Source of the DNA: Nocardioides xinjiangensis
GTDB lineage: Bacteria; Actinomycetota; Actinomycetes; Propionibacteriales; Nocardioidaceae
DNA length: 64,000 nt
Reading direction: 5' to 3'
Assembly (NCBI RefSeq): GCF_017916455.1
Contig: NZ_JAFMSY010000004.1
Location: 186,001 to 250,000, forward strand
The notes beneath the pieces were generated by a model that did not search any database, was not told where the DNA came from, and was given only the letters and a program-made list of their open reading frames with translations. Within the stretch, counting starts at the first letter, position 1, and every line of letters starts with the position of its first letter. Below are positions 16,250-18,231 of this stretch, one piece after another. Both the position numbers and the translations under genes were made by a program.

Positions 16250-16344
16250 ACCCCCGGGCTCCGGCCCGACCTCACCCAAACCGACCGGCGCCGCCGGTCG
16301 TCTACCCGGGTACCTGACACGGCCCGAGAGAAGAAAGGCACCCC

Positions 16345-16950
16345 ATGCCCAAGCCCAAGAAGGGTCCCCGCCTCGGCGGCAGCCCGGCCCACCAGCGCTT
16401 GATGCTGTCGAACCTGGCGACCGCCCTGTTCGAGCACGGCCGGATCACCACCACTGAGACCCGGGCGCGCCTACTGCGCCCGGTCGCGGAGAAGCTGATC
16501 ACCAAGGCCAAGCGCGGCGACCTGCACAACCGTCGCGAGGTCCTCAAGACCATCCGTGACAAGTCGGTCGTGCACACCCTGTTCACCGAGATCGCGCCGA
16601 CCTTCGCCGAGCGTCCCGGTGGCTACACCCGGATCACCAAGATCGGCCCCCGCAAGGGCGACAACGCCCCCATGGCGATCATCGAGCTGGTGACCGAGGC
16701 CTACAGCCCCAAGGCCCCGTCGACGAAGAAGACCGAGGCCGCTGCCGCTCCCGCGCCGGCCGCCGAGGCCGCTCCCGCCGAGGTCGAGGCCGAGGGCGTC
16801 GACGGCGAGACCGAGGTGCTCGACACCGAGGCCACCGAGGTCGAGTCGGCCGAGGCGCAGGCCCAGGGCGACGCCGCCGAGGTCACCGACGCGCCGGAGG
16901 CCTCCGAGGCCACCGACGAGCCGGCTGCCGAGGACGACACCAAGGCCTGA
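16345..16950 (+). CDS. rplQ: 50S ribosomal protein L17 with acidic C-terminal extension
   Basis: Residues 1-122 are a normal L17 ([21 protein letters not shown] at 11-31; the ERPGGYTRI motif). Residues 123-201 are an Ala/Glu/Asp-rich low-complexity tail absent from the classic 120-residue protein. L17 lies near the peptide exit tunnel of the 50S subunit. The ATG is preceded by AGAAAGG. The gene closes the rpoA unit and is followed by a terminator hairpin. Similar acidic tails are known from other actinobacteria, so this is a lineage trait; its function is unclear. Confidence 0.97.
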
Positions 16951-16973
16951 TCCAGGTCCACCCGCACCACGCG

Positions 16974-17003
16974 AGGCCCGCCACCCTTCGGGGCGGCGGG
17001 CCT
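16974..17003 (+). terminator. Terminator after rplQ
   Basis: A 13-bp stem with one mismatch (AGGCCCGCC and CCC against GGG and GGCGGGCCT) is closed by the stable tetraloop TTCG (16987-16990). It lies 24 bp after the rplQ stop. No U-tract follows. It precedes the palindromic repeat array. Confidence 0.65.
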
Positions 17004-17036
17004 TCGCGCGTCCCGGGCGCGGACGTCGTACGCCCG

Positions 17037-17252
17037 AGCGGTGCGTGGGGCAGGTTTTCGCGGGCAGGAAGCTGCCTCACGCACCGCTGGCGCGGAGGTC
17101 GTGGGTCGAGCGGTGCGTGGCGCAGGTTTCCGCGGGCAGGAAGCTGCCTCACGCACCGCTGACGCGGTGTTGTACACCCGACCGGTGCGTGAGGCAGATT
17201 TTCGCGGGCAGGAACCTGCCTCACGCACCGCTGACGCGGAGGTCCAGGGTCG
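17037..17252. repeat. Three tandem 72-bp units, each with a 52-bp palindrome
   Basis: Copies at 17037-17088, 17109-17160 and 17181-17232 have an exact 72-bp period. Each begins with (A/C)GGTGCGTG and G(G/C)CAG, and ends CTGCCTCACGCACCGCT, so the ends pair. In copy 3 the stem is 15 bp without mismatch. The middle contains TTTCGCGGGCAGGAA in all copies (TTTTCGCGGG in two). The 20-bp spacers are also related (G-C-G-C-G-G near the start, G-T-C-G at the end in two). The array lies between convergent rplQ and the panE-like gene. It resembles REP/palindromic intergenic elements; it could terminate transcription both ways. Short open frames across it are by-products of the repeat. Confidence 0.85.
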
Positions 17253-17274
17253 TACGCCGAGCGAGCGGGGCCGG

Positions 17275-18231
17275 TCAGAGCGCCGCGAGGACCGCGCCGG
17301 CGTCGAGGCTGCGGGGCGGGCCGCCCGTGGCGGCCAGCCTCCGCGTCGCGGCCACGACGGCCTCGTTGACCGGCGTCGGGAGGCCGAGGAGCCTGCCCTG
17401 GAGCACGACCTCGCCGGCGAGGTAGTCGATCTCGGAGTCTCCGGTGGCGCGGGTCAGGCTCTGCCACGTCGACCCGCCCCGGCGATCGAGGTCGGGGCGG
17501 CGCACGAGGATCGACCCGCGCCGGGCGCGGTCCTCCTCGGCGCTCACGACCGTGGCGCCCGCCGCGGCGAGCACCTGCTCCCCCTCCGCCTGCGCCAGCT
17601 CTGCGAGCCGGTCGGCCTCCTCGCCCTCGGCGAACGAGGCGTCCACGCCGTTGCCGAGGTTCATCACCAGCTTGCGGCGCTTCATCGCCATGATGTCCTC
17701 GCGCTCCACCGACTCGATCCGCGCGGCGCGGAGGTCGGCCGACACCGCGGCCGTGGTGGCGTCGGTGCCGCCCGGGAAGCGGCCGATGTCGAGGATCGCC
17801 GGCGTGGGGTGGCACGAGGCCACCACGACCCCCGGCTCGAGGTGGGTGGCCGGCAGCATCACGCAGACGGCGTACGTGCGGGCGAAGAGCCGCAGCACCG
17901 CCAGCTCGGTCGCGACGCCGTTGGTCAGGCAGACGACCGGCACGTCCGCCGGAGCGTGGGCCCGCAGGTCCGCCAGGGCGGCGGCCGCCTGGTGCGACTT
18001 CACCGCCAGCAGCACGACCGTGTCGTCGGTCCACTCGACGTCCGCCGCCGAGTCGGTGGCCGGCGCGTCGACGCGGTGGCGGCCGTCGCCGGCGTCGAGG
18101 GTGAGGCCGCGGGCGCGGATCGCCGCGAGGTGCTCGCCGCGGGCGACCAGCGTGACAGCGCTGCCGGCCCGGTGGAGGTGTCCGCCGACGACCCCGCCGA
18201 CGGCGCCCGCGCCGTACACCACGTATCGCAT
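17275..18231 (-). CDS. 2-dehydropantoate 2-reductase (KPR/PanE) family protein
   Basis: A 318-residue Rossmann enzyme with the dinucleotide motif GAGAVGGVVGGHL (8-20) and the family's LAVKSHQ (75-81), LTNGV and MKRRKLVMNLGN segments. Members reduce ketopantoate to pantoate with NADPH, a step toward CoA, but several paralogues use other 2-keto acids. No other pantothenate genes are adjacent, so I do not assign panE. The ATG at 18231 has no Shine-Dalgarno but a -10-like TAGGCT ends exactly 6 nt before it, so the transcript may be leaderless. It is read toward the palindromic array. Confidence 0.88.
   Translation of the reverse strand: MRYVVYGAGAVGGVVGGHLHRAGSAVTLVARGEHLAAIRARGLTLDAGDGRHRVDAPATDSAADVEWTDDTVVLLAVKSHQAAAALADLRAHAPADVPVVCLTNGVATELAVLRLFARTYAVCVMLPATHLEPGVVVASCHPTPAILDIGRFPGGTDATTAAVSADLRAARIESVEREDIMAMKRRKLVMNLGNGVDASFAEGEEADRLAELAQAEGEQVLAAAGATVVSAEEDRARRGSILVRRPDLDRRGGSTWQSLTRATGDSEIDYLAGEVVLQGRLLGLPTPVNEAVVAATRRLAATGGPPRSLDAGAVLAAL

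Follow-up and report, generated by a model that had tools for sequence, protein, structure and literature searches.

Introduction

Among described systems, one of the closest to the locus presented here is the REP/RAYT pair, in which a fast-evolving gene lies between inverted copies of the palindrome with which it co-evolves (PMC2817692). Two protein families offer further points of comparison: AbiEi antitoxins, which bind 23-bp inverted repeats lying 3 or 13 bp apart (PMC7319586), and MTES_1575, which was named a novel Vsr-type REase (PMC3710099). In the literature searched, MTES_1575/DUF559 proteins were tied to no dispersed DNA word, unlike in the case described below. DNA uptake sequences (the DUS/USS dialects) are clade-specific words that stand at gene 3' ends, sometimes as inverted pairs, and number thousands per genome.

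The locus is a palindromic array of Nocardioides xinjiangensis. As with REP/BIME elements and their RAYT (TnpA-REP), its palindromes were dispersed between genes, singly or in arrays, and a partner gene lay inside inverted copies of them. This partner was not a RAYT, however, and in place of the Y1 HUH transposase it appears to join an AbiEi-like winged helix to a Vsr/DUF559-like nuclease. The element also differed, being a 48-bp inverted pair that is uncompensated, phased and apparently double-stranded, whereas a REP is a stem-loop of 20-40 nt with a GTAG-type head. Relatives of the partner shared the AbiEi-like N-terminal domain with AbiE, and half-sites of 18 bp around a 12-bp centre come close to AbiEi operators; unlike in AbiE, a nuclease-like domain is fused to it and the putative operators are dispersed over the chromosome. 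The C-terminal domain of these relatives matched PF18741 and PF04480, as in MTES_1575/DUF559 Vsr-like REases. The palindromes recall uptake sequences as clade-specific words at gene 3' ends that may form inverted pairs, but they are much longer, paired, phased and present about 150 times per genome, not thousands of times. The literature searched, which did not extend to subscription journals and preprints, yielded no described system built from these parts.

Based on sequence comparison, the interpretation favoured here, with a probability of about 0.7, is that about 31 arrays, this one included, are dispersed over the genome as double-stranded DNA sites bound by a cognate AbiEi-type winged-helix/nuclease-like protein encoded at C5:83230-84246.

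The triple array and its dispersal in the genome

The window, a 64,000-nucleotide stretch of the 3.71-Mb genome (C4:186001-250000), contained three units with a period of exactly 72 bp at 17037-17252, which received the highest Tandem Repeats Finder score in the window (342). Score and coordinates confirmed the triple palindromic repeat that the preliminary description had placed between rplQ, encoding ribosomal protein L17 (16345-16950, forward strand), and a convergent panE-like gene downstream (17275-18231, reverse strand; ketopantoate reductase-like, named by sequence only). Each unit comprised a 48-bp imperfect palindrome of the form CGGTGCGTGRSGCAGRTT-N12-AASCTGCCTCACGCACCG, with two 18-bp half-sites around a 12-bp centre, and a 24-bp spacer. 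The palindromes occupied 17039-17086, 17111-17158 and 17183-17230 (48 bp each) and the spacers 17087-17110 and 17159-17182 (24 bp each), with a centre-to-centre distance of 72 bp, or about 7 helical turns. The palindrome consensus was CGGTG-N-GTG-RSR-CA-NN-TT, followed by 12 bp and the reverse complement. The loop TTYCGCGGGCAGGAA was common to all three copies in the window, the third copy had a perfect stem of 15 bp, and the stem folds predicted for the forward strand ranged from -33 to -39 kcal/mol (z -5 to -8). Just upstream of rplQ, positions 16282-16331 matched RF03132, the L17-Actino-Proteobacteria ribosomal protein leader (41.7 bits). A separate GC-rich hairpin, terminator-like without a U-tract and outside the palindrome family, lay 3' of rplQ at 16974-17003 (forward strand).

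The half-site pattern GGTGCGTGRSGCAG was abundant far above chance, with 127 matches in the 3.7-Mb genome versus 2 for the reversed control. A whole-genome search, as the preliminary description had advised, recovered about 31 intergenic arrays with 149 palindromes, spread over all five large contigs, and the unit length was exactly 48 bp in 141 of the 149. By the first gene calls, for which a simple home-made caller was used, none of the 31 arrays overlapped a gene; two were flagged when the arrays were grouped a second time. Seventeen arrays lay between convergent, 12 between tandem and 2 between divergent genes, and those in tandem positions were mostly closer to the 3' end of the upstream gene (10/12, p = 0.03). 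The dispersed palindromic family suspected earlier was thus found, as tens of intergenic sites, either single or tandem; most stood at gene 3' ends, often between convergent genes.

The arms were common to all arrays, whereas centres and spacers were private to each array yet nearly identical within it, indicating that whole units were duplicated locally as the arrays expanded. The earlier proposal that the entire 72-bp unit had been duplicated therefore stood, units being near-identical inside arrays and different between them. The conservation of loop and spacer stressed in the same description held inside one array but did not extend across arrays, as other arrays had other loops and spacers.

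Related genomes and inheritance of array positions

Allowing up to 3 mismatches, the palindrome was present in 33 of 197 Nocardioides genomes, with a near-zero reversed control, and the 80 matches listed with names were from Nocardioides only. The highest copy number was that of the N. xinjiangensis genome. A search of relatives had also been advised, and related Nocardioides did carry palindromes, often in the same intergenic slot. Slots that also held N. xinjiangensis arrays accounted for 12 of the 27 arrays of N. cavernae and 8 of the 18 arrays of isolate 2B1271, about one being expected by chance on the author's estimate, and a separate pairing of arrays showed more shared pairs than these two counts. 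Within shared slots, loops and tails were recognisably inherited in close relatives while the arms took the form typical of each species, which suggests that slots were mostly passed on vertically and that the arms were under a trans-acting constraint.

The content of the slot 3' of mdh, compared in 30 Nocardioides genomes (L218-L247), varied by clade between differing repeated words, palindromes and plain hairpins, and so the slot is a general point of arrival for elements of this kind. At L237 (genome G010), three tandem units of ~95 bp containing GGTCGAGTAGCCGCGCGGCTGAGGAACGAAGCCGCGACCGGCGTATCGAGGC were found there, unrelated to the 48-bp palindrome.

Nature of the palindrome

At degenerate arm positions, partner arms matched no more than arms taken from separate arrays within one species (pooled p = 0.92). 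For the N. xinjiangensis genome, an arm permutation showed that arms paired less than shuffled arms; no excess pairing indicative of compensatory stem changes was thus present. Neighbouring palindromes were 61-62, 72 or 82-83 bp apart from centre to centre, corresponding to 6, 7 or 8 helical turns, and 31 of the 37 modal spacings outside the 72-bp peak were in phase (p~1e-20, with shared ancestry ignored). The helical phasing and the independence of the arms together point to a protein-bound double-stranded DNA site, and the arm permutation ruled out an RNA or single-stranded DNA hairpin under selection.

It is very unlikely that the palindromes are transcription terminators, that is RNA hairpins ending both convergent transcripts. 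Such a role would agree with the location of arrays at gene 3' ends, the strong predicted RNA folds and the ordinary GC hairpin that replaces the palindrome at the mdh slot in some relatives, but no U-tract followed the stem (0 found in 16900-17320), the arms were uncompensated, helical phasing is meaningless for RNA, and rplQ already has the hairpin of its own at 16974-17003. A U-tract terminator was rejected; what may survive of the bidirectional terminator first suggested is termination as a by-product of sites that, given their phasing and independent arms, look like double-stranded DNA bound by a protein.

The REP-like identity first suggested was not sustained either. A Y1_Tnp (PF01797) search found none in the N. 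xinjiangensis genome, although 5 of 14 control genomes were positive, which leaves it without a RAYT/Y1 transposase as partner, and arm mismatches were uncompensated. By eye, no GTAG- or CGTC-type head common to the 149 copies was seen outside the arms, flanking bases being locus-specific. Since the Y1 transposase, the compensatory stem and the common head all fail, the family would work like REP/RAYT without being a member of it.

A reading as a coding repeat (72 being 24 codons) was rejected, since periods of 61 and 82 were seen elsewhere in the family. Viral origin was rejected, the palindrome having 0 matches in viral contigs and the protein family not being found in phages. An uptake sequence was likewise dismissed, as no lone half-sites away from arrays occurred among the 100 matches listed. 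Arrays from five loci had no match to known structured RNAs in Rfam.

A host role in chromosome structure or supercoiling, with the phased arrays acting as BIME-like or nucleoid-protein sites and a nuclease fold turned binding protein, is conceivable but doubtful. The strong helical phasing, the constrained arms and the retention across species of slots beside core genes would all suit it, as would the placements (58 convergent, 51 tandem and 2 divergent, against 7 convergent among the 54 gene pairs of the window). It is harder to reconcile with a copy number ranging from 141 to a few among close relatives, with the many Nocardioides that lack this palindrome and have plain hairpins in the same slot, and with nuclease residues that are still conserved.

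The candidate partner gene

Two arrays of the N. xinjiangensis genome bracketed a single gene, C5:83230-84246, outside the window. Its neighbours were a YihY-like gene and sdhB (named by eye), and no AbiEii toxin gene was next to it. Palindromes stood beside the gene in 30 of 30 fetched orthologs and on both sides in 29, those upstream being predicted sites in a position like that of AbiE operators. The gene was at other genomic places in genomes G158, G038 and G066, where the palindromes had a different inner sequence (those of G038 were identified by eye). A strong ortholog, defined as over about 440 bits and counting the two frameshifted pieces of G116, was present in 28 of the 33 palindrome-positive and 0 of the 164 negative Nocardioides genomes (Fisher 3e-29, confounded by ancestry). 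The preliminary description had guessed at a protein acting in trans, which fits this palindrome-flanked gene as candidate partner.

The five palindrome-bearing genomes without a strong ortholog had 1-14 palindromes (14 in one of them; median 3), compared with a median of about 12 where the gene was present (p = 0.02, based on these five genomes). This difference could mean that chromosomal arrays are decoy or antidote sites that restrain a toxic nuclease and are kept while the gene is present, which the AbiEi relationship and the tracking of the protein by the arms would also fit. Such a role is improbable, however, given that toxicity of the nuclease is supposed and that the copy-number difference rests on five genomes.

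Two genomes had apparently damaged copies. The gene appeared frameshifted in G116 (C34:95546-96489) and had one in-frame TAG in G112 (C7:421498-422445); both are possible natural losses and would be useful for testing palindrome decay.

The partner protein evolved about four times faster than that of sdhB (mean protein distance 0.36 versus 0.08). Given sdhB distance, the flanking word co-varied with the N-terminal domain (110 columns; partial Mantel r = 0.43, p<0.0005, 27 species) and showed no such relation with the C-terminal part (r = 0.05, p = 0.27, 27 species). These values come from a re-analysis with a stricter choice of true flanking palindromes, made after an earlier test with a looser palindrome pattern and the whole protein had given r = 0.12 (p = 0.13). 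For G007, G017, G046 and G088, the gene stood next to a word other than that of the dispersed class found, the search pattern being biased to the N. xinjiangensis word.

The protein of C5:83230-84246 itself was matched by no Pfam or NCBIfam model. Among its relatives, N-termini matched AbiEi_4/AbiEi_1 and C-termini MTES_1575/DUF559 (Vsr-like REase), several of them below Pfam cut-offs; L242 matched PF18741 and L242, L297 and L303 matched PF04480 above the cut-off, and the N. xinjiangensis protein fell below it. Support for the AbiEi-type winged helix in relatives was weak in Pfam and clear in PADLOC, and for the N. xinjiangensis protein it came through profile-profile homology, which joined its group to the relatives over 262 columns (98.5%, E 2e-15). 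The acidic residues D246 and E257 of the nuclease domain were invariant in the family alignment. A search of solved structures by sequence gave no matches, and the AlphaFold model, with five sequences tried, was too poor to use (pLDDT 43). The partner is thus a candidate AbiEi-like winged-helix protein with a Vsr/MTES_1575/DUF559-type nuclease-like domain.

If the nuclease still cuts at or near the sites and repair copies them elsewhere, in a REP/RAYT-like or homing-like manner, gene and palindromes would form an active mobile pair, selfish and without host function. This is a serious contender, at somewhat less than even odds. A fast-evolving gene that stands between inverted copies of a dispersed word and co-varies with this word repeats the RAYT/REP organisation (PMC2817692), and the acidic residues D246 and E257 of the nuclease domain do not vary. 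Slots common between species came to only about 40-45%, indicating that sites turn over, and the gene is found at different loci in G158, G038 and G066. On the other hand, no insertion showing a defined target or an empty-site footprint came to light, and a family-member query was not found in phages and had 3 weak matches in plasmids. Orthologous slots kept their loops and tails while the arms changed, which looks like selected point mutation and not like replacement by copying.

Gene and word pairs in other Actinomycetes

Inverted flanks were sought by aligning the upstream flank of a gene with its reverse-complemented downstream flank. A score of at least 40 was reached by 32 of 51 family genes and 0 of 205 ordinary genes (Fisher 8e-28); the former, from many actinobacterial genera, were a non-random set of mostly best-scoring matches including several loci of the same clade, and the latter were the author's own selection. 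One relative, in the Nocardioides genome G041, had on its flanks three direct and three inverted copies of GAGTCGGCGCCAGTTT; this word was also spread through that genome, its spacings following a best-fit period of about 10.45 bp. The G041/G038 word was one of several dispersed words belonging to other family members. In the Nocardioides genomes G013 and G037, the words on the flanks of the relatives were of CGAGC-GTC type; dispersed copies numbered 55 and 82 against zero control matches, and their spacings fitted a period of about 10.7 bp.

In the N. xinjiangensis genome, all five other relatives were bracketed on both sides by private words. Within the 332 kb searched (9% of this genome), the words of paralogs L301 and L303 recurred elsewhere, and those of L293 and L295 occurred outside their loci 1 and 0 times (at most 3 mismatches).

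The word flanking L303 (C1:1318001-1318495) was GCGTCATRCGGACC-GC-CCTAT, with four copies at a period of 74 bp at a distant locus (L077:971-1230), and L301 (C2:106555-107133) was flanked by the short palindrome GCAATCCCCCGCTTAGGCGGGGGATTGC, which recurred at L064:4048, L074:2306 and L075:2465. Local words also bracketed, in inverted orientation, other stretches of 0.4-1.3 kb (G013:C1:905237-905696 and 2707625-2708363; G041:C25:149350-150803), possibly with further genes or gene remnants inside the word pairs.

Relatives at E<=1e-20 occurred in 164 of 395 genomes, from 69 of the 137 genera sampled. Widespread two-part systems in Actinomycetes are probable: each would consist of an AbiEi-like winged-helix/nuclease gene and a private flanking word, dispersed as phased arrays at gene 3' ends and co-evolving with the N-terminal domain, with several such pairs per genome, as a non-HUH counterpart of REP/RAYT. 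The protein-and-word pairs seem not to have been described before, no paper tying DUF559 or AbiEi proteins to dispersed repeats having been found with the same literature coverage (subscription journals and preprints outside it).

Proposed mechanism and origin

In the preferred reading, as binding-site arrays of a cognate protein, each monomer would recognise an 18-bp half-site by its N-terminal domain; monomers would form pairs across a palindrome, and stacking would link palindromes that are in phase. With neighbouring palindromes 6, 7 or 8 helical turns apart, protein pairs would come to lie on one face of the DNA and could contact each other. A gene flanked by its own sites would be self-regulating, presumably by self-repression. 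Dispersed sites would be tolerated at gene 3' ends, where a site interrupts no gene, leaves promoters free and does little harm. They would multiply by local duplication of whole units and pass on vertically, their arms would track the specificity of the resident protein, and where the gene is lost sites would tend to be few.

The most likely purpose is that of a partly selfish pair like REP/RAYT, in which a trans-acting nuclease and its dispersed sites would have been assembled from unrelated parts. The likelihoods given above to an active mobile pair, to a role in chromosome structure and to decoy sites are not mutually exclusive.

Implications

If this reading is true, evolution would have paired dispersed palindromes with a nuclease dedicated to them at least twice, by unrelated chemistry. 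The clade-specific intergenic words in Nocardioides would be explained, and 3' intergenic hairpins in these genomes would not simply be terminators. The very common actinobacterial 'DUF559 / AbiEi-like' family would gain its first testable role, and dozens of natural protein-word pairs would become available for reading the DNA-recognition rules of this winged-helix family.
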